Positions 15,842 through 58,171 of a stretch of 64,000 nt of DNA are shown one piece after another. The translations under genes and the position numbers were made by a program. Position 1 is the first letter of the stretch. Each line of letters begins with the position of its first letter. Below the pieces are notes generated by a model. It was given only the letters and a program-made list of their open reading frames with translations, made no database searches and was not told the origin of the DNA. Source of the stretch: Cladocopium goreaui (Eukaryota > Sar > Dinophyceae > Suessiales > Symbiodiniaceae); the NCBI GenBank assembly GCA_947184155.2, contig CAMXCT020000446.1, forward strand, positions 303,280 through 367,279, read 5' to 3'.

Positions 15842-15956
15842 TACCCTCTGGTAAACGTTTACATAGCTATGGAAAGATCCACCCATTTTTAATGGGAAAA
15901 TTCACTATTTCGACTGGGCCATTTTCAATAGCTATGTAACAAATTACCAGAGGGTA
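15842..15956. repeat. MITE family A copy
   Basis: TACCCTCTGGTAAACGTTTA start and AAATTACCAGAGGGTA end, with the GACTGGGCCATTTTC interior. Confidence 0.75.
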
Positions 15957-16109
15957 CTCATTGGAGGGACAAAACTCAGGTTAAACCAGACAATTTTTGT
16001 GACTTGATGAACACTTTTAAAACTGGGGCGACCACACCGGAAACTCGTCACATTCCACCGGCCATTCTTGGAGTTTTGTGGGCCAATATGGATGAAAATG
16101 ATAGATGGG

Positions 16110-16140
16110 AAAAAAATGGTAAAAGGGGGATGCTAGGACA
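16110..16140 (+). repeat. left terminal inverted repeat
   Basis: Pairs with 27285-27315 on the opposite strand with three mismatches (positions 5, 13 and 22). Directly preceded by the target duplication ATGGG at 16105-16109. Confidence 0.85.
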
Positions 16141-16373
16141 TCCCAAGGGTTTATGTTGGTTGTTATGGTTTTTATGTTATTGTTCAATGTTTCTTCCCTA
16201 CCTTTGATGTTTTATGTGGTGGGGGTTTTGGGACTATTTTACCCCTACCTTTCACTGTTGATGTTTGGATTGAAGGGGGGTAGGATTTGTTTAGACTGTT
16301 GGGGTTTTGTGTTTGTGTTTGGGCGGGTGATTACTTCATAATATATTTTGTTAAGATATTATGAATTAATCAT
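16141..16373. other. non-coding left terminal region of the viral element
   Basis: G/T-rich on the plus strand with repeated CCTACCTTT words (about 16197 and 16242) and an inverted GGGGTAGG (about 16276). From 16329 an imperfect palindrome is formed by GATTACTTCATAATAT and its near inverted copy ending 16371. The 16-mer also occurs inverted at 26500-26515. It could hold end-recognition or 3'-processing signals; no gene seen. Confidence 0.5.
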
Positions 16374-16850
16374 TTATGCTTTCCACTTTCCTATTCCATC
16401 CCACCAGTGTTCAATTATCCTGACTTGACTTGTGATAGGTTTGTCTGTATCATTCAGTTCATCTATTGCTAATGCTAATAGAGTTTGATATATTGCCATA
16501 GCATCCCATTTTCCATCACGGTTAAATTCCTTACCACAATCAACGATGACCTTTTTATCAGTGAGGTTTTCATACATCTTTTTCATAATGTCAAAATTTA
16601 CAAACGAATATATTATCATAGCATTTATTCCTTGGTCGTTGTTCAATCTGTTAATTACTTTCTTCCAAAATTTGTCTCCTTCCTCATCATCTGGTGAAGG
16701 CATAGGATGACACCTTACAAAGTCTCTAATCTCTTCATCTTCTTTTTCTATTGCTTTTCTTTCCCAGTCATCGTCTTCGCTTTCACTACCAAAGTCAGCA
16801 TATAAACCGATATTACCTATATCTATAACCTCAATTTTTGCTCTACTCAT
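16374..16850 (-). CDS. viral protein of unknown function, 158 aa
   Basis: Intact ORF of 158 codons. The ATG at 16850 lies just downstream of the element's minus-strand promoter motif, which supports this start. The N-terminal third is acidic (FGSESEDDDWERKAIEKEDE). The rest looks globular, with INAMIIYSFVNFDIMKKMYE and a W-rich tail (RIIEHWWDGIGKWKA). No signal peptide or membrane segment. It is the last minus-strand gene before the left end. I do not recognise a family. The AT-rich codon use matches the other viral genes and not the host exons. Confidence 0.75.
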   Translation of the reverse strand: MSRAKIEVIDIGNIGLYADFGSESEDDDWERKAIEKEDEEIRDFVRCHPMPSPDDEEGDKFWKKVINRLNNDQGINAMIIYSFVNFDIMKKMYENLTDKKVIVDCGKEFNRDGKWDAMAIYQTLLALAIDELNDTDKPITSQVRIIEHWWDGIGKWKA

Positions 16851-16857
16851 TTTCTCT

Positions 16858-16887
16858 TATTATATATAGGTATTTTTTCTTTAAGTA
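16858..16887 (-). promoter_or_regulatory. viral minus-strand promoter motif
   Basis: Read on the minus strand: TACTTAAAGAAA, a short A/T spacer, then CCTATATATA, then the ATG of the 16374-16850 gene about 8 bp later. The same arrangement precedes the genes at 17534 and 18013, so it is probably a shared viral promoter. Confidence 0.7.
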
Positions 16888-17534
16888 TTTATCACTTTTT
16901 GTAGGTGTTCTTTTATTTCTTCTTGATTACTGTATTTCTCATAGCCATTGAACAGTTCTTCGGTGTATTCACGCAAGAAAATTTCCAAAATGTCTTTTAT
17001 CTTGAACTCCCTGTTTCTAAACATAAAAGTTCGTTCAACATTAGGAAACCACCAGCATCTTCGTTGCTTACTGTGATTGATGAAATTAAGGTCGTGAAAG
17101 TTCTTTAGAATATGATAAGTGTATTTCCAATGGTTTTTGACATAAGACTTAATCGCTTGAAGATATATCTTATCTTTTTGAAATTCTACCTTCAGTTTAT
17201 AGGTGTCCATTAAAGCATCTATTTTTCTCTTCATTACTCTAACATTTGTTCGGTCGGTGTTGGATAAATAGATAGGTGATTTCTCCATCCTTGTTTTAAA
17301 GAAATGCATTTGTTTTTCAATTTTTGTTAGTTCTTTCTCTTCAAAATGGTCAAAATGATAGTTGAATGTTATATATCAGCGTTCCTTATCATTCAACTCT
17401 TTACATTTAGAACAGTGAAGGTTGTAATTACATATCTCATCACAAATTCCAGCAGGAAAAATGTTGTTCAATAAAACCTTAATGTCAGTCATTTCTTTCT
17501 TACAACATCCACAGTTTTTATAAGTAAATAGCAT
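16881..17534 (-). pseudogene. zinc-finger viral protein interrupted by one in-frame TGA
   Basis: One reading frame runs from an upstream ATG at 17555 (or, better placed behind the promoter motif, the ATG at 17534) to the stop at 16881, interrupted only by a TGA at 17376-17378. Before the stop it encodes about 52-59 residues with a cysteine pattern NCGCCKKE...CDEIC...CSKC, fit to bind zinc. After it come about 165 residues, including SPIYLSNTDRTNVRVMKRKI and QRRCWWFPNVERTFMFRNRE. The frame is identical on both sides, so a single base change (or stop readthrough) separates the halves. The N-terminal cysteine arrangement resembles that of the neighbouring 17642-18013 gene. Family unknown. Confidence 0.65.
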
Positions 17535-17540
17535 CCTCTT

Positions 17541-17570
17541 ACTATGTATAGTCATTTTTTCTTTAAGTAG
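17541..17570 (-). promoter_or_regulatory. viral minus-strand promoter motif
   Basis: CTACTTAAAGAAA followed by a CTATACATAGTAAGA block, aligned base for base with the motifs at 16858-16887 and 18026-18054. Because an ATG at 17555 lies within the motif, the next in-frame ATG at 17534 is the more likely start. Confidence 0.65.
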
Positions 17571-17641
17571 TTTTTGGGGGCTCGTTCAGTTTTCGGGTTC
17601 GGGTTGGTTTTTATTTTCCCTTTCCTCCTCTTCCAGTTCTC

Positions 17642-18013
17642 TTATGACCATACTGTATCTATTTCACTCATTCCTTCGTTGGGGTCTTGTCCATTGGCGA
17701 GGTTTCTTAACCTCTCAAAATCCTTCACTTTGTGTCTTTCATTGGGTGGGAGGGTTTTGAGATGTTCCTTCAACTCTGTCAGGTCAAAGTATGTGTCTTC
17801 CTCTTCATCCTCATTTTCCAAAAACATTTCCATTTTTTGCTTTTCCATCTCCATAAGTTTGTTTTCCATATATTGGAATTTCATTTGCTTCTTGTAGCAC
17901 TTGCCACAAACATTCACGAAGGTTTTGAGCAAGTAGTTCCAATTAGGTTGGTTTCTATCGTTCAGGGTTATAACATCTGTCATTATACGACATCCACAGT
18001 CAAATTTTGTCAT
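17642..18013 (-). CDS. small zinc-finger-like viral protein, 123 aa
   Basis: The open frame extends further upstream, but the ATG at 18013 is chosen because it follows the promoter motif at 18026-18054 and gives a sensible N terminus, MTKFDCGCRIMTDVI. Cysteines DCGC and later VCGKC form a likely zinc site (residues about 6-8 and 36-39). They are followed by a charged helical region (MEMEKQKMEMFLENEDEEED) and a tail with LPPNERHKVKDF. It is similar in cysteine layout to the interrupted gene at 16881-17534, suggesting paralogues. It is divergently arranged with the integrase gene, with only about 85 bp between. Function unknown. Confidence 0.7.
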   Translation of the reverse strand: MTKFDCGCRIMTDVITLNDRNQPNWNYLLKTFVNVCGKCYKKQMKFQYMENKLMEMEKQKMEMFLENEDEEEDTYFDLTELKEHLKTLPPNERHKVKDFERLRNLANGQDPNEGMSEIDTVWS

Positions 18014-18098
18014 CTTATTTAGTCTTACTATATATAGGTATTTTTCTTTAAGTATATTTTTTATTGCTGATAATTTTAAAAATCTAATATTATAATAT
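18014..18098. promoter_or_regulatory. divergent viral promoter region
   Basis: Leftward: TACTTAAAGAAA (18043-18054 inverted) plus a TATATATAG block, driving 17642-18013. Rightward: AAAATCTAATATTATAATAT ending at the integrase ATG. A related AT-rich phrase (AAAATCTCAACTATTAATAT) precedes the 19857 gene and AATATTAATAT precedes the 19064 gene. Confidence 0.6.
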
Positions 18099-19040
18099 AT
18101 GGCAAGGAGACTATCAAGAGATGACATCATAAGCAATGTCTATTACAATCTGGAAACGGGCTTCGGCTCAATCAATGAGACCCTCAAGAAAGCCAAGGAA
18201 CAAGACCAGACCATCAACAGGGTGGATGTGGAAAACTTTATGAGGAAACAGCCCAACAAACAGATTAGAAAATACAGGGGTTCAAACTCCTACACCGCGC
18301 CCTTCGCAAGGTTTGAATATCAGATTGACATAATGGATATGAAACCCCTTACCAAAGAACCAGAGACGAAAATTCCCATCAAGAACGACGAACCGAGATA
18401 CGGGTTGGTGGTCATTGACATCTTCAGCAAGTTGGCAAACGTCGTCCCTATGAAAGAAAAATCCAGACCAATTACATTGTCGGCGATGAAAGAGAGTTTC
18501 AACAAAATGGGTTTTCCAATGTCCGTTTATAGTGATAATGACCGTGCCTTCCAAGCAGGGGTTAAAGAGTTTTTTGAGAAAGAAGGCATCACTCACGTCG
18601 TCACCCTAACACACGCTAATGTTGTGGAGCGTTTCATAAGGACAATGAAAAATATAATACACGATAGAGTTAGGTTTAATCGCGGTAGTTGGACTGTGAT
18701 GTTGTCCAAAGCGTTAGATAAATACAACGACACCGTCCATTCATCCACCAAAATGAAACCCAAGGATGCACACGACGACAAGAACCATATGGACGTCAGG
18801 GTGAATTTGACAAGGAGGGAAAAGAACACTCGCAAATATCCAGAGGTCAAAGTGAATGATATGGTCAAGGTCTTTGAGAAGGAAAAAGACAACTACACCG
18901 AGAGGAAGGAGTATAACTCAAAATGGAGCAATCAATCCTACAAAATCGTCAAGATAGAATACGATGATGTCGGAAACAGAACCTTCAAACTGGAAGGATT
19001 GAACAAACCGTATTTGAGGCACGAGATTTTGAAAGTATAA
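18099..19040 (+). CDS. retrovirus-type DDE integrase (rve), 313 aa
   Basis: It would join element DNA to host DNA by strand transfer. An N-terminal helical part (residues 1-70) is followed by the RNase H-fold core, in which D77 (YQIDIMDM), D146 (VYSDNDRAF) and E177 (HANVVERFIRTMKN) fit the catalytic D-D-E triad. The segment LVVIDIFSKLANVVPMKEKS is the classic second strand of the fold. D146 to E177 is 31 residues, slightly shorter than the D-35-E spacing of retroviruses. The last about 70 residues (VKVNDMVKVFEKEKDNYTER onward) resemble the small beta-barrel or chromo-like tail of Polinton integrases. An N-terminal HHCC zinc domain is not evident. The ORF is intact, 313 codons. The TSD flanking the element is what this enzyme class leaves. 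Confidence 0.93.
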   Translation: MARRLSRDDIISNVYYNLETGFGSINETLKKAKEQDQTINRVDVENFMRKQPNKQIRKYRGSNSYTAPFARFEYQIDIMDMKPLTKEPETKIPIKNDEPRYGLVVIDIFSKLANVVPMKEKSRPITLSAMKESFNKMGFPMSVYSDNDRAFQAGVKEFFEKEGITHVVTLTHANVVERFIRTMKNIIHDRVRFNRGSWTVMLSKALDKYNDTVHSSTKMKPKDAHDDKNHMDVRVNLTRREKNTRKYPEVKVNDMVKVFEKEKDNYTERKEYNSKWSNQSYKIVKIEYDDVGNRTFKLEGLNKPYLRHEILKV

Positions 19041-19063
19041 AAAATTATCTATAATATTAATAT

Positions 19064-19381
19064 ATGACAGAGGTAGTCGTAAAAGAGATTGATAATGAAG
19101 AACCAAAGGAAGAAACAATACCAGAACCAATACAGGAAGAAGCACCGAAAGAAGAGGGGAAACCAGAAGAAACAATTGAACCACCCGTTGAAAAGAAACC
19201 GCAACCAGCGCCAAAGCCCAAAAGGGTAAGACCGTCAAGGGCGAAACCACCTTTTGACCCAGAAGCATTCAAAAACGACCTTGTAAAGCAACTGAAGGAA
19301 GAACTACAGAGTGCAATGACCGCCAGAGACACCTACAACAAGCCAAAGAGGAAAAGAACAAAGCGACGAGAGAGAAATTGA
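19064..19381 (+). CDS. Pro/Glu/Lys-rich viral protein, 105 aa (possible C-terminal frame switch)
   Basis: Starts 23 bp after the integrase stop behind AATATTAATAT. Residues 1-45 are acidic and proline-rich (PKEETIPEPIQEEAPKEEGK), residues 46-65 are basic (KPKRVRPSRAK), then a helical segment DPEAFKNDLVKQLKEELQSA. The last 16 residues in this frame are unusually basic. In the +1 frame the same DNA reads QAKEEKNKATREKLKSLAST, a better amphipathic helix, up to a TAA at 19405-19407. A one-base indel near 19330 is therefore possible. Function unknown; it could be a virion or nucleic-acid-binding protein. Confidence 0.6.
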   Translation: MTEVVVKEIDNEEPKEETIPEPIQEEAPKEEGKPEETIEPPVEKKPQPAPKPKRVRPSRAKPPFDPEAFKNDLVKQLKEELQSAMTARDTYNKPKRKRTKRRERN

Positions 19382-19419
19382 AATCTTTAGCATCAACAAT
19401 TTTGTAAAGTAATATAAAA

Positions 19420-19790
19420 ATGAACATCAAGGAACAGAAAACGGAACTCAACAAAAAAGACATCTACGAAAACGGTCCGCAAGGATATCAACAGAAGACA
19501 AACCGTCCATTCAAACAAAAGTGTATAGTAGTTATGACCACTACGTAACCACAACGACAGCAACACGGAACACGGCAAGGATACCAACTCACAACCATCA
19601 TCTTTACCTAAAGCGTCTTCTTGAATATCACACTGAGCACGATTACAAGGTCTTACAAGTAAAGCAGAGGATGAAGGAAGAGAATGAGATGCTACAGAAC
19701 GAAATGACAAGGTTGAGGGAGGTGAGGAAAAATCACAGATTGGAAGATTACGGGGCGAACGTCCAGAATATGAAACAGAGAATTGATTAA
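19420..19790 (+). CDS. small viral ORF in two overlapping frames
   Basis: An ATG at 19420, after an AT-rich leader, opens 42 codons (MNIKEQKTELNKKDIYENGP...) ending at 19546-19548. In another frame, open from about 19410 and without its own ATG, the DNA reads TRIPTHNHHL-type sequence. It continues as a clear coiled-coil (KQRMKEENEMLQNEMTRLRE) to the stop at 19790. The two halves look like one gene of about 120 residues broken by a single indel near 19515-19525. No known domain. Confidence 0.5.
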
Positions 19791-19856
19791 TACAAACAGT
19801 GGTTGAGAGGCGATACACAAGATTAATATAAAAATCTCAACTATTAATATATAGCA

Positions 19857-20240
19857 ATGACAGCAGAAGTAATCAACACAAAACAGGGATTGACACGAAT
19901 ACCCACTTATGCGGAACTCATCAAGGAAATAGACAGGGAAAAGTTCAAAACCAATGACATCAGAAAAATCTTTGATAGGAACGCTTGGTATTTTCACGAA
20001 AGTCCGCAGGGTCAAGCACTGAACACAAACAACATCCACCCAGCAGACTTACAGCAAATGAACTTCAAAAAGATGGCAGAGGAAGCGACCGCGAGGAAGG
20101 AAGAAGAAACACCCAACCTTGACTTTGAAGATATGACAGTCTTGAGGGACGACGCCATCAGCGACTTTGAGATGTCCTTTGACAGAGAGGCAGAGTTGAG
20201 GGAAGAGAACGAAAGGAGAGAGCAGAACAAGCAAACTTAA
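19857..20240 (+). CDS. unknown viral protein, 127 aa
   Basis: Intact ORF with its ATG behind AAAAATCTCAACTATTAATA, the plus-strand leader motif of this element. The N-terminal part looks globular (RIPTYAELIKEIDREKFKTN, FDRNAWYFHESPQGQ). The C-terminal third is charged and probably helical (DREAELREENERREQNKQT). No cysteine cluster, signal or membrane segment. It ends 20 bp before the next gene and is probably co-transcribed with it. Family unknown. Confidence 0.7.
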   Translation: MTAEVINTKQGLTRIPTYAELIKEIDREKFKTNDIRKIFDRNAWYFHESPQGQALNTNNIHPADLQQMNFKKMAEEATARKEEETPNLDFEDMTVLRDDAISDFEMSFDREAELREENERREQNKQT

Positions 20241-20260
20241 GTCATTCACAAGACCACTAT

Positions 20261-21154
20261 ATGGCAAACAAAGGAGCCTACGACGCCGTTGGAGCAACAG
20301 CATCGGCAGGGATACAAGAAAACGAAGAACCGCCTTCAAGCAGTAGAAGCATCTTAAAGAAATTTCTTAAATCATCCAAACCAGTCATCAAAGCAGTCGC
20401 CACAGCAGGAGGAACAGCAAAGGGAGGGTCAATAGGAGGACTAATAGCATCAAAACTGACAGACACCATCATACCCGACGAAGACGAGGAAGAGAAACCG
20501 TCCAAGATAAAACCAACACAAAAACTAATCAACAGACAAGTCAAAAAGGTAAATCACCAAAAGAAGTTAAAGGAGGAAAAATCAAAAATGAATGTAGATG
20601 TAGCGCCCGACACCGCAGAAGCAATGGACACTTCGGCAATACCAACAGCAGAAAAAAGGAAGCCCTTAAGCGTGAGACAGTCCAAAGCAAAGAGGCAGAA
20701 ACCAAAACCGCCAACGCAGGAGAAGAGAGAAATTCAGGAAGACCCATCCACAACCACCAAACCGCCCAAAGCAAGAAGAGTAAGAGGAAAGCAACCCCAA
20801 ACACAAGCATTAGGAGCAACAATCAACATCCCCCCCAAAGACAACAAGACACCCAATGTAGATGAAGCAGAAACAGCACAGGAAGAAACAGGGGCGTCAT
20901 CTTCATCAAAAGCACCAGTCAGGAAACCAACAATGAACAAAGCAATATCACCAAGCAAGGTAGGAATACAAGTGATAAGAGAGAAGTTTGAAGAGATGAA
21001 CAACAGCAAAAGCATAGACACAGGACACTATCAAAGGTTTCAAGAGGTATATGGTAAATGGAAATCAAGCAAGGGAGAGGAAAAGAAACAGCATCTAAAG
21101 GAAGCGAAGGAAGTTTACAAGTCAATCATCTATCCAAAATTAAAATCAAAATAA
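20261..21154 (+). CDS. basic viral protein with Gly/Ala hydrophobic patch, 297 aa
   Basis: Intact ORF; start ATG after CCACTAT. Residues about 33-65 contain FLKSSKPVIKAVATAGGTAK followed by GGSIGGLIASKL, a glycine/alanine-rich amphipathic patch. A long disordered basic region follows (KRQKPKPPTQEKREIQEDPS, KPPKARRVRGKQ), and a helical C-terminal end (YQRFQEVYGKWKSSKGEEKK). Minor virion proteins of some adenovirus-like and Polinton-like viruses combine a membrane-active patch with basic tails, so a virion or core protein is possible. That is inference from composition only. Convergent with the capsid gene that ends 49 bp away. Confidence 0.7.
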   Translation: MANKGAYDAVGATASAGIQENEEPPSSSRSILKKFLKSSKPVIKAVATAGGTAKGGSIGGLIASKLTDTIIPDEDEEEKPSKIKPTQKLINRQVKKVNHQKKLKEEKSKMNVDVAPDTAEAMDTSAIPTAEKRKPLSVRQSKAKRQKPKPPTQEKREIQEDPSTTTKPPKARRVRGKQPQTQALGATINIPPKDNKTPNVDEAETAQEETGASSSSKAPVRKPTMNKAISPSKVGIQVIREKFEEMNNSKSIDTGHYQRFQEVYGKWKSSKGEEKKQHLKEAKEVYKSIIYPKLKSK

Positions 21155-21202
21155 TTAATAAAATTATTCATTATAATCTTACATTTATCCACTAATATTT
21201 TT
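21155..21202. terminator. convergent gene junction
   Basis: A 48-bp AT-rich stretch separates the stops of the convergent 20261-21154 (+) and capsid (-) genes. AATTAATAAAATTATT and ATTTTTTTAG could serve as 3'-end signals on the two strands. No strong hairpin seen. Confidence 0.35.
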
Positions 21203-22609
21203 TTAGTCATAGAAAATGACAGATTGGGCTTTTATCTCCAAGATACATTCGTGTTCAATAACGATATACATTTTGTCAGGCATCAGTCCAGTATCAGTTC
21301 CGTTGTCTGTTGTATATAGGTCTGTTCCATACAATGGCTTAACACGGACAACCATATTTGAATTGTTCTTCAAATTCAGTCCAGTGTAATTGGCACTGTT
21401 GAGTTTCTTGAGGTTGAACCCCGCTAAAAAGGAATTCGTCCTATACATATGAGGTTTGATTGAAACGTGATTGTTTCGTGTTTCTTGTAGATGCTTGTAG
21501 TTGTCAGCAACCCCCATCGTTGGCATTTCGGGTATGACGGTATTACCAATACTCAACTGAAAGGACAAATCAATGTTTTCATAGTATCTTTGAGCAATTG
21601 ATGTTCCGCTTTCCCACGAAAGGGGATGATAAAGAAGGTTATGAGGTTTCAGCACTTCTTGGAAACCACCCTTATAACCAAAATTTGAATAGAAAGATAT
21701 GAAGATGTTATCTGCTTTACTGACATTTCTAACTATTGTCGTGAAGATGTCGGTGCTTCTACTTGTTGTTTGGGTTTGGACGGAAACGCTGTTGAAGGTT
21801 ATAGGTAAAGATTGCTTTTCCAAAATTTCAGCATAATCCGCAAAAAATCCATCATCAAGTCGGTGAATATCACAGGTGATGATGGGTTGCTCTATGTTCC
21901 ATAAGAATGAAGTATTCGTTGTGGTAAATCACCACTTAAATTAACGAGGGGTTCATTAGCATCACTGACCAAAGTTAGTTCAATGACAATCGGACAGTAT
22001 GATAAAGGAATAAAGTTTGATACATTGAAGAAGGGACAAGAAGGTCGGTAATAAACGGTCTTTTTGTTTTTAAACCCTCCGAAATTGTCAGGTTTCGCTT
22101 GGTCAATGACATTCTGGACTGTGTTTGAAACTGGGTTCGTTGCCAACTGCGTATATGTCAAAAATCGGTTTCCTTCATTGTAAAAGGTCTCACCAAAACC
22201 AAGATTGTCAGTATAGTTTCTTGAACCGTCATCTTGTAAAATATCCATCATTGCTTCGTTCGTATCTATTTTTTAAGTCAGGAATTTCAGCAATAACATT
22301 TGAACCCGCCATCACTCGCATTCGTTGAAAAAATGAGGATGGTTTATAGGCAGGTCTCAATTCCTTTGTTCCGTCATTGTCGGCATTGATGAGGGTAAAA
22401 CCTATCAAAAGACTTCGCAGATTTATCCATTCGTTTGCTCCACCCGTTAGGTTAAAGCGGATGACACTGTTTGAGTTGGATGAATAAGTAGAGACCGAAG
22501 AAGGGTAGAATGTTTTAATGCGTTTGTCTCTAATGTAGGACGCTCCACCTTTTAGTCTATACCGAAGGACATTTTCATTGAGAACATCTGTGATTTCCAA
22601 TGCTTCCAT
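21203..22609 (-). pseudogene. Polinton-like virus major capsid protein (double jelly roll), three frames
   Basis: About 469 codons from ATG 22609 to the stop at 21203. The segments fit PLV-type capsid proteins: WINLRSLLIGFTLINADNDG and SFFQRMRVMAGSNVIAEIPD (N part), NFIPLSYCPIVIELTLVSDA (middle), and IIT-C-D-x-LDDGFF followed by SLPITFNSVSVQTQTTSRST (C part), the conserved second jelly-roll entry. It would form the hexon-like trimers of an icosahedral shell. The frame changes twice. At about 22265 the A6 run reads on correctly with five As. Between about 21900 and 21925 the frame switches from ...LPQR to FLWNIEQ. Either indel decay or assembly error explains this. The start follows a weak version of the element's minus-strand promoter. 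The C-terminal ORF (206 aa, 21823-21203) and the N-terminal ORF (126 aa) are individually open. Confidence 0.85.
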
Positions 22610-22658
22610 ACTTGTATATATTCTATATAGATGTTTTTTAAATATCCGATATACTTAA

Positions 22659-23684
22659 TCAAGTTGTATCAAAGTTATATGTTTTAAATGTATGTTTGGT
22701 TTTCTTCCCTTTGTTTTGGGGTTTGTTTTCTATCGGTTTATTTTCGTTGTTCTTTATGTCTTTTCCGCTCCGAGACAACCGTTCAGGATGGTCTTTCTCA
22801 TACACTTTACATATACCGCATTGAAAACATGAGATAGACCATTCACATTGTTATAATATATAAAGTGTTTCAATGTTTTATGTGTTCATCCTGAACGGTA
22901 TGCATCAAAAATGAATACATAAAACACTTGTTGTCTTCATTTTTGATGTTGATACACGCTTTCTTTGAACCCATTTTGGTAAAGGTATGAATTGACCTCC
23001 ACGAGTTGGATTGTATTTGTCAAAGTTAAATTTTATCTTATCCATCTGTGTTAGGACTAATCCACTCTCCGACATTTCTAATACTTCCGCTTGATGTTCT
23101 ATGTCAGTTGCCATCTGGTTTAAGACGTTTGTTATTTCCTCTTCATTGGTTATTTCATATCTTCTGCTCCTAACTTCTCTCCTAACGACTTCGTTGGTTT
23201 TCTTGCTCTTGAAGTTGCTGAAAGTTTGTAATAAAACTTTCATTCCCTTATGTTTTCTCAAATTCTCTTTTATCTTGAAGTCTTGATATTTAAGATATTG
23301 GATTGCCTTGACGCCTTTGACCCTGATGTCGCTGATGGCATAAGATGATGTATAGTTCTTGAAGGCAGATTGTTCGTCGGTGATGGTTGCTTTGTATCTC
23401 TGTTGTATTCCTATTAGTGCTTTGTTCTTGTCTAAATCCACCCATTTTTTACCTTTTTTTTCTTTCAGTTCGTATCTTTTGTAGTCCATAGTTTGCCTTA
23501 TCTTGTTGAACTTGGTTTTCAATCTGTTCGTGATGGGTGTGTTTCTTTCAAAGTTGTAGGTCTTCTCACCTATCTTCAGTTTCTTAAGTTCTTCTCCATT
23601 CCGTTTCAATATCTCGCCTGTTTCACTTGATAAAATGTAATCTAAAACAATCTGGTCTGAGGTGTTCATTATATTATGTTCCAT
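22659..23684 (-). pseudogene. Polinton polymerase-associated N-domain protein, frameshifted
   Basis: The open frame begins further upstream, but ATG 23684 is preferred because TACTTAAAGAAA lies directly before it (23704-23716). The main frame runs to 22905 and includes KYNPTRGGQFIPLPKWVQRK. Just after this, in the next frame, comes KACINIKNEDNKCFMYS. Together these form a motif that I know from proteins encoded just upstream of, or fused to, B-family DNA polymerase in many Maverick/Polinton elements. A third frame piece from about 22840 to the TGA at 22659-22661 reads YEKDHPERLSRSGKDIKNNE, matching the PER[VI]S step that follows in that family, and ends in a basic tail. An inverted-repeat insertion (22778-22899) lies across the break. 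No polymerase domain follows. Confidence 0.65.
22778..22899. repeat. 13-bp inverted repeat flanking a 96-bp insert in a viral gene
   Basis: ACCGTTCAGGATG at 22778-22790 and its perfect inverse CATCCTGAACGGT at 22887-22899. The bases between (about 96 bp) are AT-rich and interrupt the reading frame of the polymerase-associated gene. It looks like a small MITE insertion. Confidence 0.6.
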
Positions 23685-23699
23685 ATTATTATTAGTGTA

Positions 23700-23717
23700 T
23701 GTTTCTTTAAGTAGTTT
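23700..23717 (-). promoter_or_regulatory. viral minus-strand promoter motif
   Basis: CTACTTAAAGAAACATACAC on the minus strand, about 20 bp before ATG 23684. It lies inside the longer open frame, which argues that the upstream 39 codons are not translated. Confidence 0.55.
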
Positions 23718-23917
23718 TTCAGTTGAATTTATCTGTTGAGGTTGTTGAGATTGATTGGATTGTTGGTTGTGTTGGTTTTCAATATTAGTCTGATTTTTCA
23801 AACCTTACACCCTCTCCCATATTCTCTATTCTATATAAGGTAATATTTCTTTAAGTAGTTTTGGATTTTGGTCTCCTGTTGGAATTTCTGGGATTGAGGT
23901 TTGAGTTCAACGTTTCA
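23718..23917 (-). other. remnant leader with another promoter motif
   Basis: The minus strand carries CTACTTAAAGAAATATTACC and a TATATAGAA block (about 23832-23866), then ATGGGAGAGGGTGTAAGG, which stops after 11 codons. Beyond it a Q/N-rich open stretch (NIENQHNQQSNQSQQPQQIN) continues toward 23717. It may be the wreck of a further small gene. Confidence 0.4.
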
Positions 23918-24265
23918 TCAATGGCGTCTGTTGCTCATACAAACGTTGGTTTGACGGTGTTTTGATAGATTTGATTTGCTTGTTATTGTGCGTCCGCAGT
24001 CAGGGCAGGTGAAAGGAGTTGATAATCTCTTTTGATAATACTTTGAAAAATAATTGGGGTCTAACGGTTTCTTGTCGTAAGATTCGTCGGGTTTATAACG
24101 ACTTCTTGAAGTCGTTAAAATAGCCTCTGGCTGTTACCATCTTGTGGATGTTGCTGTTGGTGGATTGTGGGGGTTGCTGGATTGGTGTAGTGCTGCCGCC
24201 ATTTGGTCGAAAAGGTCTTCGTCCATTTCTTGTTTCATACTGTTAATATACATATAGCAGGGCAT
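23918..24265 (-). pseudogene. C2HC zinc-finger viral protein with one in-frame TAA
   Basis: Behind a TACTTAAAGA motif (24290-24306 inverted) and a CTTATATAA block, ATG 24265 opens a frame that is interrupted once, by TAA at 24134-24136. The frame then runs on to TGA 23918-23920, 116 codons in all. The N-terminal part reads MDEDLFDQMAAALHQSS. The C-terminal part contains PFTCPDCGRTITSKSNLSKH followed by RQTNVC, a C2HC (C2H2-like) zinc finger. The frame is the same on both sides of the stop, so a single substitution could account for it. Likely DNA-binding if expressed; family not known. Confidence 0.6.
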
Positions 24266-24309
24266 ATTCAATTCTTAATTATATAAGGCGGTATGTCTTT
24301 AAGTATTTT

Positions 24310-24840
24310 CGGGTTTTATGTTGAATAATGGGGTGTCCTAACAAGTGTCCTCAAATGGTGTCAAAAGGGGTCAAACAAGAGCAGTTCAGGACACTTGTTG
24401 AAATACTGTTCCTACAGGTGTCTCAAAGATTTCATGTCGTGAATGTCTCATAAATTCTATGCCAGATTGCGCGGAAAGTCTCATAGCATTTTATGTCAGT
24501 TGTGTGCCAACCACGTCGTTGATGGTCGAGGTCAGGATTGAAGCGAAGCTGTAAAACATATGGATAAATCTATACAAAGTATAACAATCCGCCACCATCA
24601 ACTGGGAGATATGCTTTTTGGCAACTTCCACACCCCAGAGCGTGTCGCTCCCTCCCAGTTGATGGATTTTTAAAAATGAAACAACAAATTTAAATACATA
24701 TATATATATATACATATATGTTTGAAACCCTTTCCCGTTCCCATATTTTGGTGAGACCGTTGCGACGCTGTCCCTTCTGACAAACAGGGGGGTGAATGAG
24801 TGGGGTAGGGGGGATATAATTACTATATTATATGTGTGGG
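24310..24840. other. non-coding segment with short inverted repeats
   Basis: Contains AACAAGTGTCCT / AGGACACTTGTT (about 24339 and 24388) and a 14-bp perfect pair CCATCAACTGGGAG / CTCCCAGTTGATGG (about 24594 and 24653). An AT microsatellite lies near 24695-24720. No gene seen. Base composition rises in GC toward the NTPase gene, so a junction between viral and inserted DNA may lie near 24720-24840. Confidence 0.45.
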
Positions 24841-25094
24841 ATGTGTGCGCAGGGGAGAGTAGTCCGCCCCCTTCTCCTCCATCATGTCAATACCTCAGCG
24901 CAAGCGCTTCAACTGGTGGGTGGCATGAGGGAACGCAGAAACAAACAATGCGCGAAGATTGAAACTTCTGTGCTACAGCTTTGTTCATTTTGCTTTTTTT
25001 GACAAAATCATCACGTGCTCTGATGCTGATGCTCACACTTTTGCATCTCTCTGCTGTTCACTCTACACCCTGTACCTGTTCAAACTTACAGTGG

Positions 25095-26241
25095 CTACAG
25101 GCCGAACACAGTCTTCGCTGCCTCGGCTACACAATCGAATTGGAACTTGTACACTGCACCTGGTATGGGGGTGAAGAGGTTGGGTCTCACGAAATTCGCC
25201 ATGAAGTTCTGCTCATCTTTGCAGTGCTGGCGAATGTCCCTGTAGTCGACTGCTCCAACAAGCGCTTTGCTGTAGAGAACCTTCGCAGCCCTGAGACCTC
25301 CATCCTTGCCGTTGTGGGAGCAGTGCTCTTGAGATTCCTCTACTTTCTTCATCCACTCCTTCATCTCCTTCTTGCAAAATGCATCTTTGTCCTCCGCTCT
25401 CTTGAACTGTTGAAGGCTCTCGAAGGTTCGCGGGATGTTCTTGAGCATCTCTTCCGTGTGGCCCTTGGCGTGGATGTGCTGGAGGTACTCCTTGGCTTTC
25501 TCGAGTGGCATTTCCTCTGCCATCAGCTTCGCAAGCCTTGGCTCATTCACACTCAGAAGCTCCAAGATCTCGCTGGATGCTATGACTGCCGAAGCCACCC
25601 TCGCGTCGGCACAAAGCCACTTCACATCCTTGACGAGCTTGATGATGTTGATTGAGCTGAAAATTGGAACTGAGCTCGGCGTTGGCAAAAACAAATTCTG
25701 CACAGTCTTCACTGTTTTGTCTGCCCCCTCTACAGGCAATGTCGTGGGGTTCAACACCACATCCACCCCCACCTGCACCGGCGAGCCTGTCTGCTCCCGC
25801 ACCAACTTGAAGACTTCGATGACGATCTTCTCGCTGGTCTTGCTAGCGTCCCACCGGAGATGATGTGCAAAGAAGGGGAGACAAAGGACTGAATCTTTCA
25901 TCTGGCCATACATTGCGTCGTAGACGTTGCCATCCGTGAGCTTGAGGTAGAACGGGTTCGGCTTCTCTCTCAGGAAGTGCGACAAAGTGCTGGACTTCCC
26001 TGTGGATTTTAACCCAACGAGGCCGACCATTGAAGCTTTCTCCATCATGTACCTGTCAAACAGGCAAAACCGGTGGTCGTACAGGAGCCTCTGGTTAGAA
26101 GTATCCTCTGCGGATTTTGTGCGCCATCCGGTGGGTCTCAGTTGCATTCCACGCATAGGAGGCAAAGACGCCGACAACGGGCGTCCCAACGCCCAGCGGT
26201 GCTGCATTAGCGCGAAGCCACGCCCAAGCTCCGGAAGCCAT
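25095..26241 (-). CDS. P-loop NTPase (STAND/archaeal-ATPase-like) nested in the element
   Basis: An uninterrupted frame (25095 to about 26393) encodes a Walker A motif GLKSTGKSS after MEKASMVGLV. A hydrophobic strand with an acidic residue (SPVQVGVDVVLNP) is a candidate Walker B. Then come ASSEILELLSVNEPRLAKLM and MPLEKAKEYLQHIH, a helical layout like archaeal-type/STAND ATPases, and a lysine-rich C part. The first about 95 residues of that frame look like untranslated sequence. The adjacent frame from ATG 26241 reads MASGAWAWLRANAAPLGVGT...VFASYAWNATETHRMAHKIR up to about 26095, just where the NTPase frame becomes plausible, so a frameshift near 26100 probably joins them. It is GC-rich, intronless and unlike the viral genes: host-derived cargo or a later insertion. 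Confidence 0.65.
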
Positions 26242-26499
26242 GAGGAGTTTAGCGTTTTTGTCTGCACATGTTGAGCAACAGCCAGTGCTGCGAAATGCAA
26301 TGAGCAACAGGTCATGTCATGCAATGTGATGCAATGCAACACAAGACAGCAGAAGTCTGGGACTGCAAGAACACCAGTGCTGACGAGGTGCAATGAGGAT
26401 GCTGCTCACGAACTCAAAGGCTGTGATGATGTGCAAGAAGAGTTTGAAGGACATTGAGTCTCTGCCAAAGTCATGAAACAGTGGAACTTCCGATTAAAC

Positions 26500-26515
26500 A
26501 TATTATGAAGTAATC
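26500..26515 (-). repeat. 16-bp inverted match to the left arm
   Basis: ATATTATGAAGTAATC is the exact reverse complement of 16329-16344. It marks the right edge of the GC-rich NTPase segment, where AT-rich viral DNA resumes. Confidence 0.6.
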
Positions 26516-26562
26516 GTTGAGACCCAGACACCCATTTGAAGATATAGTCCCAGAACACTTTA

Positions 26563-26862
26563 ATGAACGAACATAAAGGTAGGAAATGTTCAAAATGTAA
26601 AACGACGCAAACTCTAGAAAACTTTGCTAATGGAAAGGCATTATGTAAAAAATGTTGTGAGTATAAACAGCATTATAAAGAAAATCACCGAGAAGAAGTA
26701 AGACAAAAAGAGCGGGAACGCTATGAACAATACAAACGACAAAAACTTGAGAAACAGAAAGAAAAGGTTGAATGTCCCATTTGTAAAATTGAGATTTCAA
26801 GAAACAAAATGTTAAGACACGAAAGAACCCAACGACATAAAAAAACACTTGAACAAACCTAA
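26563..26862 (+). CDS. viral zinc-finger protein, 99 aa
   Basis: Intact ORF. The N-terminal zinc ribbon CSKCKTTQTLENFANGKALC with CKKCCEY has the layout of small zinc modules common in phage and large-virus endonuclease-type proteins. A basic linker (KERERYEQYKRQKLEKQKEK) and a C-terminal C2H2 finger (CPICKIEISRNKMLRHERTQ, then RH) follow. Its low GC and lysine-rich usage match the left part of the element and show that viral sequence resumes right of the NTPase segment. Probable nucleic-acid binding; exact role unknown. Confidence 0.7.
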   Translation: MNEHKGRKCSKCKTTQTLENFANGKALCKKCCEYKQHYKENHREEVRQKERERYEQYKRQKLEKQKEKVECPICKIEISRNKMLRHERTQRHKKTLEQT

Positions 26863-27152
26863 CCCAAAACATATAGAACAACAAAAGAAAACTGATGAAG
26901 AAATGAAACGAATAAAACACCAAGAAATCATAGACTACCTTAACGCAACATTTCCCTCATATCCAGATGGTAAAATCACAACAACCTCAACAAATCCTAA
27001 CCACATTCAAACAGAAAGCCCCAGAAAAGTTAGCGACCAAAAAAAAACAGAACATACAACACATAAAACATCAAAGGGAAGGAAGAAACATTGAACAAGA
27101 ACATAAACAACATAACAGGCAAAACACCCTCAACAAAACCTACCCTCATTGA
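26849..27152 (+). pseudogene. decayed K/Q/N-rich viral coding remnant
   Basis: Two overlapping frames without ATG near their beginnings read KTDEEMKRIKHQEIIDYLNA (26849-27094) and QKAPEKLATKKKQNIQHIKH (26967-27152). The composition is that of the neighbouring viral genes, so they may be a frameshifted continuation of the 26563-26862 gene. No domain recognised. Confidence 0.4.
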
Positions 27153-27284
27153 AGCCAAACATTATTACAACAACCTAAAACATTTATATATATAGCAATA
27201 TAACCAAGAAGAAACAGTCAAACATTTCAGATTACAAGATTGAACAAAAACATAACAGCCTCCCACCTGACCTACAACCTGTCT

Positions 27285-27315
27285 TGTCCTAGCTTCCCCC
27301 TTCTACCATTGTTTT
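27285..27315 (-). repeat. right terminal inverted repeat
   Basis: Inverted copy of 16110-16140 with three differences. Followed at once by ATGGG (27316-27320), the second copy of the flanking duplication, or ATGGGA if the terminal A is counted to the target. Confidence 0.85.
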
Positions 27316-27324
27316 ATGGGATAC

Positions 27325-42943: not shown

Positions 42944-45474
42944 TCAAATTGGCACATGGATACTATCTAAATTATCTACATCCCTTGGAGATGGGGGTCT
43001 TAGAGCCCTGGCTATTTTAGGGGCCCAACCTATAAACCGCACATCCGACCCCAAAGGTTTGGCACCATGCCAAGATGACCAATTTTGAATGACAAGATTA
43101 AACCCAGTATCGGTAACTTCGGGAGCTTGTCTTTTTTTGGCACCCTTTCCTTCACCCTTTCCGTCAACCTTTCCCTCACCTGTCTTCCCGTTCTTTTTCT
43201 CAGCAACATTGTCAAAGTCCAACCTTCTTCTCGCAGAGTCCCCAGTCTCCTCAGCCTTTGCCTTTGCCCGCTCCACAAACCGTTTCGAAGCTGAGTGGGC
43301 CAATTTCATGGGACTCTTGGTGGCTGCCTTATCTGCCTTCTTTTTTTTTTTGGCTGGGCTCTCCTTGTCATCTTCATCTCTCTTCTCACTCTGCGACCTC
43401 TCCTTCTTCGTTGCCTTCTTTGTCGGCTCTGCATCATCCTCTTTCTCCTTTGCATCTGCCATCTCAGATTTCTCCTTCTTCTTGGCTTTCCCTGACTTGT
43501 CTTTCTGTTTCTCTTCCGCTTTATCTGCCGTCTTCTGTCCTTCTGGGTGTTGCTTTTGCTTCTTCTTGGGTCTGTCTTCGGGCTCCTCACTGTTTTCAAC
43601 ATCATCATCTTGCTTTGCATCATCCAGTTTCTTTGATCGGCCTCGTCCTCGTCCTCGTCCTTTTCCTTTGCCGCGTCCTCTGCCTCTAGCTGCTTTTCTG
43701 TCTTCGCTGTCCTCCTCTGCATCACGGAGCAGTCTGTCGTCATCATCTCCAGATTGATGCTCTTCTTCGCCTTCTTGGTCTTCTTTCATCTTTCTTTTCA
43801 TTTTCCGTTGCGCTGCCACAATGTCGTCATTGGTTGTCCAACTCATGGCTCTGTGCGTCTTGTGCATCTCTCTCATGATTGAGTCTGCCTTCTCCTTCTG
43901 TTCTTCTGTGGGCTGCCTTTCGTCTTTGATCAGTGGTTCACCTCGGTCATCCATGAAAGTTGCAGCTTTCTCCGGCTCTTTGTCGTCATCTGAGTCGACA
44001 ATGATGGAGGTACTGCTTGGGACATCTTTCTTGGCAGACTTCTCCTCACCTCGATGCTCCACAGTGTCCTTCTCTTTTTTCTTTTCACGCTTCGGCTTGG
44101 TCTGTTCTTCTCCATCTTCATCATTCTTCTGCTTTTCTTCAGCCTCACCTGCCTCCTCTGCTTTTTCATCTTTGGTCCTTCGCTTCGGCTTCTTTTCCTC
44201 AACTTCTTGGCGACCTTCTTTCACTGTCATGCCCTCTGTCTCTTTGTTTTTGTCTGCATCCTTGAACTTGTTCTTTTCCGAGGGCTCCTCAGCTTTCTTC
44301 TTCGTCTCTTGCTTCGGCTGCCTCTTCCGTTTGCCATCTTCGAACTCATCCTCCTCAACAGCCTCCTCCTCAACCTCATGTCCCTTGTACTCATCATTGT
44401 TCTCGTCCTCAACCAGCGGCATATCTTTCTTCTGTGCTTTTTGCTTCACATTCTCTTCTTCGGCTTCCCTCTTGACACCTTTCCTCTTTGGAGCATCTGC
44501 CACAGTGTTCTGTCTCGTCTTCTCTGCTTCCTTCACAGCTTTCATCTTTGGACCATCCTCTGCTGTGTTCCTTTTAGCCTTCTCCGCATTCTGTTCTTCT
44601 TCTTCCTTCTTTACAGCCTTCCTCTTTGGGTCATCCTCAACTTTGCTACCTCTGGTCTTCTCTGCATTCTCTCGCTTCACCTTCTTTTCCTCAACTTCTT
44701 GGCGCCCTTCTTTCGTTCTCATGCCCTCTGTCTCGTTGTTTTTGTCTGCATCCTTGAACTTTTTTTTTCCGAGGGCTCCTCGGCTTTCTTCTTCGTCTCT
44801 TGCTTCGGCTGCCTCTTCTCTTCGGTTTCTACATCTTGATCTTCGGTCTCCACATCTTCAACCATCGGCGCGTTTGCAACATCATCAGTCCTGTCTTCCT
44901 TCATTTTTTCTGCGGCCTTCTTGGCAACCTTCCTCTTCCCTTCAGTCTTCTCTGTCTCGATCTCCCTTTCAGCCTGTTCACCTTTCTTCTCCTTCTTCTC
45001 TTTCTTGTGGCTCTTGGGCTTGTCCTTCTTTGTCTTGCTTTCTTCTAAGTGCTGCGCCTTTCGAATCTTTTCCTTTGTCTCCTTTGGGCTTTCGTTCTCA
45101 ACCTCTTCGGGTTCATCATCATCTTCTTGGTCTGACCTTTCATAGTGTTGAGTGGCGTTCATATCCTCCTCGTCCTCCTCCTCAGCTTCCCCCCAAACAT
45201 CATCGGGCCAGGTGTCAGGCATGGGGAGTGTCTCCAGGTTGTCGGGGTTTTTGGTACCAGAGTCGGTCTGTTTCTCCTCGCCTTCAAGATCCTCACTTTC
45301 CTCTGCTTCTTGCATCTGCTCCTCTTCATCTTCCTCTTGGTCTTCCCCTTCATCTTGCTCTTTGTCTTCCTCTGAACCTGGTTCTTCCTCTTCCTTCTGG
45401 CCTTCTAGACGCCATTGGCTTTCCACAAAGTCCTGACATGAGAAGGGACACGGTTTTTGCAAGGTGGGATTCAC
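42944..45474 (-). CDS. very long Lys/Glu/Asp-rich exon, internally duplicated, one frame switch
   Basis: Two overlapping open frames (45474-44719 and 44722-42944) together give about 840 codons of charged repeats such as EDEFEDGKRKRQPKQETKKK, with a short RGRGRGKGKGRGRGRGRS tract and a more ordered tail FNLVIQNWSSWHGAKPLGSD. A block ending KKAEEPSEK...ADKN...TEGM..KEGRQEVEEKK occurs twice, about 489 bp apart. Comparing the copies shows the upstream frame loses register in an A9 run (about 44760-44769), so a single-base indel rather than an intron separates the frames. A basic, probably nuclear, disordered protein; specific role unknown. Confidence 0.65.
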
Positions 45475-56920: not shown

Positions 56921-58110
56921 TAAATGATACTAAATGTTAATAAATGATACTTAATGTTAATAAATGATACTTAATGTTAATAAATGATACTAAATGTTAA
57001 TAAATGATATTTAATCTTAATAAATGATACTTAATGTTAATAAATGATACTAAATGTTAATAAATGATACTAAATGTCAATAAATGATACTTAATGTTAA
57101 TAAATGATACTTAATGTTAATAAATGATACTAAATGTTAATAAATGATACTAAATCTTAATAAATGATACTAAATGTTAATAAATGATACTAAATGTTAA
57201 TAAATGATACTAAATGTCAATAAATGATACTTAATGTTAATAAATGATACTTAATGTTAATAAATGATACTAAATGTTAATAAATGATACTAAATCTTAA
57301 TAAATGATACTTAATGTTAATAAATGATACTTAATCTTAATAAATGATACTAAATGTCAATAAATGATACTAAATGTTAATAAATGATACTTAATGTTAA
57401 TAAATGATACTTAATGTTAATAAATGATACTATAAATGTCAATAAATGTTAATAAATGATACTTAATGTTAATAAATAATACTTAATCTTAATAAATGAT
57501 ACTATAAATGTCAATAAATGATACTAAATGTTAATAAATGATACTAAATGTTAATAAATGATACTTAATGTTAATAAATGATACTTAATGTTAATAAATG
57601 ATACTTAATGTTAATAAATGATACTAAATGTCAATAAATGATACTAAATGTTAATAAATGATACTAAATCTTAATAAATGATACTTAATGTTAATAAATG
57701 ATACTAAATGTTAATGAAACTTAATGTTAATAAATGATACTTAATGTTAATAAATGATACTAAATGTTAATAAATGATACTAAATGTCAATAAATGATAC
57801 TTAATGTTAATAAATGATACTAAATCTTAATAAATGATACTTAATGTTAATAAATGATACTTAATGTTAATAAATGATACTAAATGTTAATAAATGATAC
57901 TTAATGTTAATAAATGATACTAAATGTTAATAAATGATACTAAATGTCAATAAATGATACTAAATGTTAATAAATGATACTAAATGTCAATAAATGATAC
58001 TAAATGTCAATAAATGATACTAAATGTTAATAAATGATACTAAATCTTAATAAATGATACTGAATGTTAATAAATGATACTAAATCTTAATAAATGATAC
58101 TAAACGTTAA
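56921..58110. repeat. 20-bp satellite, about 59 units
   Basis: Unit TAAATGATACTAAATGTTAA with three variable positions (T/A after ATAC, G/C, T/C). Units remain in register apart from a few short insertions near 57430-57520 and a deletion near 57714. Variant types occur in repeated runs, suggesting amplification of multi-unit blocks. Confidence 0.9.
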
Positions 58111-58171
58111 TGGCCATTTGGGGATGTTTGTTGAATACTAAATGATACGAATAATGAAGACATGGCCCCGC

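Follow-up and report, generated by a model that had tools for sequence, protein, structure and literature searches.

The systems closest to the locus described here are the Maverick/Polinton elements, the PLVs of protists, OmPLV of the dinoflagellate Oxyrrhis marina and the Mavirus-type endogenous virophages (EMALEs). For Polintons, the portion of PMC10045372 drawn on here gives a target duplication of 6 bp, and the excerpts used of PMC8547959 report no sign that EMALEs integrate in a sequence-specific manner. The protist PLV literature, in the extracts available, counts 2,535 MCPs in the dinoflagellate Polarella (Bellas et al. 2023, PMC10120064; PMC12220804) and reports PLVs in Symbiodinium (PMC10120064; cryptophyte PLVs, PMC12220804); the same part of PMC10120064 warns that frame breaks in such elements may be assembly errors.

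The window analysed in the present study, a stretch of 64,000 nucleotides from the dinoflagellate Cladocopium goreaui, carries an element spanning 16110–27315 (11.2 kb) and flanked on each side by ATGGG (Table 1). With a probability of roughly 90%, this element represents an integrating DNA virus of the Polinton/Maverick type, in the form of an endogenous copy with an internal deletion. An endogenous virus of this type had been proposed in an earlier note made from the sequence alone, and the proposal is upheld, as are the integrase, the double-jelly-roll capsid protein and the bounded ends.

Table 1 Features of the element, in coordinates of the window
Feature	Position	Strand	Remarks
Left target-site duplication	16105..16109		ATGGG, from the sequence
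Left terminal inverted repeat	16110..16140	+	Outer 31 bp
158-aa open frame	16374..16850	-	No assigned function; 160-aa frame there in several other copies
142-aa frame	16881..17309	-	Lies within a longer frame in the other copies; no assigned function
164-aa open frame	17642..18136	-	No assigned function; similar frame in other copies
rve/DDE integrase	18099..19040	+	313 aa, open
Two frames (127 and 297 aa)	19857..21154	+	Charged- and proline-rich; no assigned function
Major capsid protein gene	21206..22609	-	Split in three, each piece in another frame (residues 1-120, 116-226, 226-466 of 466)
Deletion junction	22770..22771		About 10.1 kb missing relative to the C1449 copy
PolB gene, N-terminal fragment	22771..23723	-	Catalytic motifs absent
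87-bp stretch	22826..22912		No match in longer copies; inside the polymerase remnant
C2H2 zinc-finger gene	23921..24280	-	78% identity over 120 alignment columns to a 106-aa frame of C346
Cargo: P-loop-containing gene	25098..26241	-	Two frames with a stop
99-aa zinc-ribbon-like frame	26563..26862	+	Inside right terminal region; Pfam matches below cut-off
Right terminal inverted repeat	27285..27315	-	Outer 31 bp
Right target-site duplication	27316..27320		ATGGG, from the sequence

The element had been described in the earlier note as bounded by a 31-bp inverted repeat with three mismatches and a flanking ATGGG(A) duplication, and all of this was recovered: the two 31-bp repeats are 90% complementary with three mismatches, as expected of a Maverick/Polinton with terminal inverted repeats, and the duplication is present at both ends. 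The base A following ATGGG can be counted as common to both copies of the duplication. Weaker inverted repeats continue inward to about 16348 (97 nt at 77%, 39 nt at 79% and 20 nt at 95%), and the outermost 120 nt of the left and right ends are 79% identical in the window element, 90% in copy C2713, 94% in C2066 and 96% in C3646. A genome search for other copies of the left edge, in which 40 of 426 candidates were scored, gave 28 of 39 other places starting at most 15 bp from 16110 (16095–16116 of the window) and 11 starting further inside the element, with none of the 39 extending further into the flank; the family terminal sequence (an A-run, ATGG, then GGGG) was present at 34 of the 50 left ends examined. 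Position 16110 is the left edge of the family, and the edges, together with the target duplications, point to insertion of the window element.

The DDE integrase recognized from the letters alone was corroborated by profile comparison. The single-sequence Pfam match is weak (rve_3, E 0.15), while the profile built for the family hits retroviral integrase cores in the PDB (E 1.4e-6), precomputed PF00665 assignments are found on many relatives, and the NCBIfam IS481 match has an E of 1.7e-12, though far below the NCBIfam cut-off; the integrase is thus of the rve type that characterizes Mavericks/Polintons. With 127 of 833 candidates scored, the genome contains 128 matches to it, many of which are open and of full length, and comparison of the window with eight close copies gave 20–27 synonymous to 3 non-synonymous changes, indicating purifying selection. 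Among the integrase relatives of ~54–57% identity, some are from sources with the labels jgi, lgn or mgnify, presumably metagenomes. The phage collection contained no match to the integrase, PHROGs and PADLOC gave weak matches only, and the search of viral_contigs for free relatives returned pattern matches for the integrase (3), the integrase alignment (144), the capsid alignment (113) and the polymerase (1), 0 of which were confirmed; no extracellular virus was thus found in these collections, the phage collection having been searched with the integrase.

The capsid gene, broken into three frames in the window, is a single 466-aa frame in seven of the eight close copies, the exception being C5693 with a 189-aa frame. 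Its structure model (pTM 0.76) matched the PBCV-1 capsid protein (3e-14), with the Sputnik and PRD1 capsid proteins among the lower-ranked matches, and so confirms the double-jelly-roll type claimed for this protein and common to Mavericks/Polintons. Synonymous to non-synonymous counts of 14:3, 34:3 and 35:5 indicate purifying selection on the capsid gene; the comparisons of C1449 with C4301 (0:3) and with C14 (0:4) hold too few changes to show constraint. The two charged- and proline-rich frames at 19857–21154 correspond to one frame of 434–435 codons in six copies out of the eight close ones.

Ten other copies were fetched at length. Eight of them (C5693, C346, C1260, C1449, C1613, C2066, C4301 and C14) match the window over at least 5.3 kb with 92.8–94.7% identity and one another with 97.6–99.7% identity, and the five longer copies that were sized measure 20.4–22 kb. 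The longer copies hold ~10 kb absent from the window, with an A32-type ATPase, a fibre gene and a polymerase of family B in which six motifs are present. The match to the window reaches 22770 in seven of the eight close copies and only 21880 in C5693. When 40 of 191 candidates for the junction were scored, all 39 other copies stopped at exactly 22770, and the window junction was present in 0 of the 39, so that the 11-kb form shows no sign of spread among them. In our reading, a deletion between the capsid gene and the polymerase at some time removed about 10.1 kb from the window copy.

What the earlier note took for a Polinton polymerase-associated motif is probably a remnant of the polymerase gene, spanning roughly residues 43–342 of 1317; the catalytic motifs are absent from it. 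Six PolB motifs occur in the frame of C5693; the identity of the polymerase rests on these motifs, and the longer-copy polymerase gave no Pfam PolB, PDB or NCBIfam match. The ATPase of the longer copies matches Pox_A32 (E 2e-10), as expected of a Maverick/Polinton packaging ATPase, and has no match in the window. A 276-aa frame of the longer copies, probably the minor capsid protein, presumably resembles PLV penton proteins; it gave no Pfam match and an NCBIfam match only below the cut-off, and likewise has no match in the window. An adenovirus-type maturation protease had no Pfam match among the proteins scanned. Between C346 and C1449, the minor capsid (10:0) and lipase-like (15:1) genes show purifying selection by their synonymous to non-synonymous counts, and the ATPase (1:2) shows too few changes to demonstrate constraint. 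At the same time, the longer copies are not all intact: C5693 is without the lipase-like gene, the match of the C1613 stretch to other copies ends 0.9 kb beyond the capsid region, and the polymerase is disturbed in C14 and C2066.

Two possibilities had been raised for the small size of the element, a cut-down derivative and a distinct lineage without polymerase. The former is supported by the junction search and the collinear 20.4–22-kb copies; the latter fails, since collinear copies in the same genome have the family-B polymerase frame, the ATPase and the probable minor capsid protein. A compact virus lineage without its own polymerase, spreading in 11-kb form, was considered first, and its integrase is open and constrained, both ends are present, and C358, a copy of the same terminal type, is shortened too; however, the C358 breakpoint differs from that of the window, a polymerase fragment persists in the window, neither the capsid nor the cargo gene is whole, the body lines up with that of polymerase-bearing copies, and none of the 39 scored copies shares the junction, which makes this reading most improbable. 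The frame breaks themselves could be assembly errors. That a full-length copy was mis-assembled, with its middle dropped and its frames broken, is conceivable in view of the near-identical copies in the genome and the false frame breaks from near-identical elements reported in the consulted part of PMC10120064, but we regard it as unlikely: reads of the window copy should be separable, as this copy differs by 5–7% from the others and bears an 87-bp stretch of its own next to the junction.

A third explanation, that the element is a mosaic of two recombined elements and that the break at 22770 marks the site of their recombination instead of, or besides, a deletion, is a possibility of some weight, though not the favoured one. 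The body (17100–22500) is 94–99% identical per 300-bp bin to C346, C1260 and C1449, against only 71–87% at the left end, and identity to four copies right of the junction is 50–94% per bin, mostly 67–87%; likewise, the uncorrected synonymous difference per site is 0.45 for the polymerase remnant relative to C5693 and 0.07–0.22 for the capsid pieces. The polymerase, too, is strongly different (0.50) between two longer copies. Against a mosaic, the ends vary among all copies, so that fast-changing ends explain much of the divergence, and the copies compared included no full-length parent of the same type as the window copy. Deletion and recombination at 22770 can both hold.

The window copy as we read it, internally deleted and with broken capsid and cargo genes, should be unable to replicate alone; since the integrase frame and both ends are retained, help in trans is conceivable. 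For the intact virus we infer replication by its own protein-primed polymerase and packaging of its own DNA.

Insertion of the family is strongly biased in sequence. TGGG/CCCA was present at 24 of 28 distinct insertion sites, against a background of 9.3% (binomial P 2e-21), and a 5-bp target duplication was found in nine of the ten copies read at both ends, C1393 having none; that of C346 requires one base of the A-run. A duplication length of 6 bp, possible in most copies through a shared A/T, was considered, but C1260, the one unambiguous case, is compatible with 5 bp only. Staggered cuts around NTGGG would be where the integrase joins the A-run ends, and the window copy would have inserted at ATGGG. 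Such a four-base motif renders integration directly testable in vitro and predicts the locations of new insertions. We read the family as a recently active Polinton with a sequence-choosy integrase, and the long, near-identical copies at different sites, together with the constrained capsid and integrase genes, suggest recent virus activity in the host alga, which is probably a coral-symbiont type.

Host-like DNA rich in GC lies within the right end. One ATPase-like gene region is common to eight copies there, and the window and C346 carry other genes. The window cargo gene, absent from the earlier note, is GC-rich (52%) and host-like and belongs to a family of about 383 aa with named members from Symbiodinium, Effrenium and Cladocopium (Symbiodiniaceae); its structure model is poor (pLDDT 37, pTM 0.29). 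These names and a genome of 1.17 Gb make a dinoflagellate host likely. So far, genes from two distinct P-loop families have been seen at the right end, and one gene that is HNH-nuclease-like. Insertion of cargo after integration was considered, and the cargo region common to the eight copies (~89–99% identity) argues against it in that subfamily; the window copy may nevertheless have gained its cargo in this way. Tentatively, and with the odds rather against it, the family may represent a recently active Polinton lineage that combines a TGGG/CCCA-choosing integrase with a right end serving as an exchangeable cargo slot for host-type genes. By analogy with cargo hotspots of bacterial satellites, such genes may perhaps help the cell or the virus to fight other viruses. 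A cargo zone that a virus carries to new sites would be a route by which host genes move within a dinoflagellate and perhaps from one to another.

Judged by sequence, the family carries an rve integrase, terminal inverted repeats, a double-jelly-roll capsid protein, an A32-type ATPase, a family-B-motif polymerase frame and TGGG/CCCA targets. All but the last are shared with Mavericks/Polintons, as is the 20–22-kb size of the longer copies. The window copy differs from them in having no polymerase domain, ATPase or minor capsid gene, and its 11.2 kb, against about 15–20 kb or more, is due to its deletion. The family as a whole differs in that no protease was recognized among the proteins scanned, in the 5-bp duplication of the unambiguous case against the 6 bp given in the part of PMC10045372 cited above, and in its strong target preference, which, like the host-like DNA of the right end, goes beyond the textbook Polinton. 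Many copies per genome, MCP, integrase and terminal inverted repeats are likewise found in protist PLVs, for which the portions of PMC10120064 and PMC12220804 used here describe neither a target-sequence preference nor a shared host-like cargo zone. OmPLV of Oxyrrhis marina, as presented in the excerpt of PMC12721341, is also a multicopy endogenous dinoflagellate PLV with a GC content lower than that of its host, but it relies on a tyrosine recombinase and lacks both an rve integrase and target duplications. EMALEs share short target duplications and a capsid module, and mavirus an rve integrase; in contrast to EMALEs, for which no sequence-specific integration is in evidence in the excerpts of PMC8547959, 24 of the 28 distinct sites of the present family have TGGG/CCCA.

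The element in the window belongs to a recently active Polinton family, of which it is a degenerate copy carrying a deletion; such elements are already known from dinoflagellates and other protists. Its outer 31 bp form inverted repeats with three mismatches, and a short duplication lies on either side (see table). A left-edge search of the assembly (1.166 Gb, 6202 contigs; query 16060-16400, 40 of 426 candidates scored) returned the window itself, six short secondary matches and 39 other places, of which 28 started at query positions 36-57 (window 16095-16116) and 11 deeper inside the element, at 77-111. None of these 39 extended more than 15 bp into the host flank of the window; the left edge is thus the edge of the family, in agreement with the boundary proposed in the earlier note. 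For the right edge at 27315, support comes from the inverted repeat and the duplication, and from similarity to the right ends read in other copies. Beside the left end there is a hairpin, perhaps a small transposon, and sequence resembling it was also seen in the stretches around two other copies, those on contigs C346 and C2066.

Features of the window, in window coordinates
Feature	Position	Description
Hairpin	15842-15956	34-nt arms, 85% complementary
Left duplication	16105-16109	ATGGG
Element	16110-27315	11,206 bp
Low-GC part of element	16110-24340	GC 38%; flanks 41% and 46%
Deletion junction	22770	between capsid gene and polymerase remnant
GC-rich block	24900-26480	GC 52%
Cargo gene	25098-26241 (-)	split over two frames, with a stop
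Right-end part of element	26481-27315	GC 34%
Right duplication	27316-27320	ATGGG
Pyrimidine skew, + strand	43001-45000	strong; AT skew -0.51 and -0.63, GC skew -0.28 and -0.41
Tandem repeat	50940-51143	85-bp unit, 2.4 identical copies; holds TGGGA words resembling the target site of the element
Satellite	56921-58111	20-bp unit, about 60 copies, 91% matches, within a kilobase of 16% GC

The integrase protein gave 128 genome matches (127 of 833 candidates scored), which do not equal 128 insertions, since some contigs have common flanks and a single gene sometimes accounts for several rows. Six of the 34 left ends read repeated the flank of another, and the identical left flanks on different contigs (stretches L032/L060/L070, L033/L035, L037/L045, L041/L042 and L017/L021) suggest haplotype contigs or segmental duplications; raw copy counts are inflated. 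Ten other copies were fetched at length. Eight of them (C5693, C346, C1260, C1449, C1613, C2066, C4301 and C14) were 97.6-99.7% identical to each other and 92.8-94.7% identical to the window in alignments of 4.2-6.8 kb, which ran to 22770 in seven and ended at 21880 in C5693. The two distant copies were C2713 (L025; 87% in the integrase), a 4.5-kb miniature with integrase, and C3646 (L027/L028; 77%), a rearranged 10-kb derivative with inverted morphogenesis genes, in which the 5' part of the capsid gene is followed by the right repeat. Five of the copies measured about 20.4 kb (C2066), 21.3 kb (C5693), 21.9 kb (C1449) and 22.0 kb (C1260 and C346). Not every copy was intact: in C5693 the capsid gene was incomplete and the lipase-like gene absent, the polymerase was disturbed in C14 and C2066, and the C1613 stretch matched other copies for only 0.9 kb beyond the capsid region. 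A further copy, C358, had the terminal type of the window and was likewise shortened, with a different breakpoint.

With C1449 as reference, about 10.1 kb is absent from the window between the junction and the polymerase remnant. In the longer copies, this region encodes a cytosine methyltransferase (Pfam E 2e-5), an ATPase of the A32 type (2e-10) and a fibre that ends in a Peptidase_S74 domain (3e-11). It also encodes a 276-aa putative minor capsid protein, a presumably lipase-like protein, recognised by a motif and matched in NCBIfam only far below the cut-off, a further protein of 143 aa, and a polymerase (1317 aa in C5693) with motifs that we take to be ExoI, II, III and A, B, C; this last protein had no match as a polymerase in Pfam, NCBIfam or PDB. 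A GIY-YIG gene was found in C5693 (4e-5), C1260 and C346. By tblastn, the window has kept the integrase, a zinc finger, a capsid gene split into three pieces and a polymerase fragment covering residues 43-342, and at E 1e-4 it gave no match to the ATPase, minor capsid, methyltransferase, lipase-like, fibre, 143-aa or GIY-YIG proteins. In a genome search for the junction (40 of 191 candidates scored), it was absent from all 39 other copies scored, in which the match stopped exactly at 22770, so the deletion is private to the window among these copies. Of the two possibilities raised in the earlier note, a distinct lineage or a cut-down derivative, these results favour the latter.

Searches with the capsid sequence returned relatives without names only, and linked it to no known family and no solved structure. 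Modelling of a relative 98% identical in sequence gave a structure (pTM 0.76, mean pLDDT 69.6) that matched the capsid protein of PBCV-1 (E 3e-14, TM about 0.5) and those of Sputnik, iridovirus and PRD1. Among viral models, it matched a virophage major capsid protein and an adintovirus protein that bears the name penton capsid protein. This confirms the double jelly roll previously proposed. The capsid frame was open (466 aa) in seven copies, two of which (C1613 and C4301) have a common flank; C5693, the eighth close copy, had only a 189-aa frame at this position.

Compared with the eight close copies, the window integrase showed 3 non-synonymous changes against 20-27 synonymous ones (dN/dS 0.024-0.033); among the eight there were no non-synonymous and 0-18 synonymous changes, and five copies at four different flanks had identical integrase genes. 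Against the distant C2713 and C3646, dN/dS was 0.12 and 0.09. For the capsid gene, three comparisons gave 14:3, 34:3 and 35:5 (synonymous to non-synonymous changes), and two between very similar copies gave 0:3 and 0:4; the window pieces gave 9:0, 8.5:3.5 and 18:6 against C1449, where frame-break ends may add false differences. The capsid and integrase genes thus look constrained during the spread of the family, which points to a virus or virus-like element that was recently active and is not proof of particles. Between C346 and C1449, the corresponding values were 10:0 for the minor capsid protein, 15:1 for the lipase-like protein, 1:2 for the ATPase, 10:12 for the methyltransferase, 89:167 for the fibre and 281:239 for the polymerase. 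Between two longer copies, L012 and L016, the polymerases differed strongly, by 0.50 synonymous differences per site (uncorrected), and the minor capsid proteins by no amino acid, a combination that suggests that modules have recombined.

Copies differed in the DNA that separates the right repeat from the zinc-finger gene. One GC-rich gene region was common to C5693, C1449, C1260, C2068, C1517, C313, C5723 and C1393 (about 89-99% identity; some read in part only); it contained several exon-like frames with a Walker-A-type motif, and its AAA matches were weak (E 0.003, below cut-off). In its main exon, dN/dS was 0.36-1.29 in 14 of 15 pairs and had no defined value in the remaining pair, so constraint on this exon is not evident. 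The cargo gene of the window also has a Walker-A-type motif, with weak AAA matches in some relatives, and 49 protein clusters of its family were found, the named ones coming from Symbiodinium, Effrenium and Cladocopium. C346 carried an HNH-like gene (E 1.4e-5) and C2066 host-like DNA with no clear gene; the C916 stretch was matched by none of the queries, and the right end of C14 was left out of this reading.

Left ends were inspected at 39 short stretches, at ten longer loci and in the window, 50 in all; the family terminal sequence was present in 34, representing 28 distinct flanks, and was not found in 16. TGGG or CCCA occurred at the junction in 24 of the 28, against a background of 9.3% in the sequence preceding A-runs, counted over the window with the element excluded (n=2191; binomial P 2e-21); three of the remaining flanks had GGG or CCC and one ATGGT. 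Position -8 was A or T in all 28, a feature spotted after the fact. Duplications of 5 bp were found in nine of ten copies read at both ends, including C346, which needs one A-run base; C1393, read at both ends, had no target duplication. In the largely open-access literature searched, including passages of PMC10120064 and PMC12220804, no published Polinton target motif was found. Both the preference for this target and the variable host-like cargo are worth following. EMALEs are reported to integrate without sequence specificity (PMC8547959), whereas the present family shows the TGGG/CCCA preference at its junctions.
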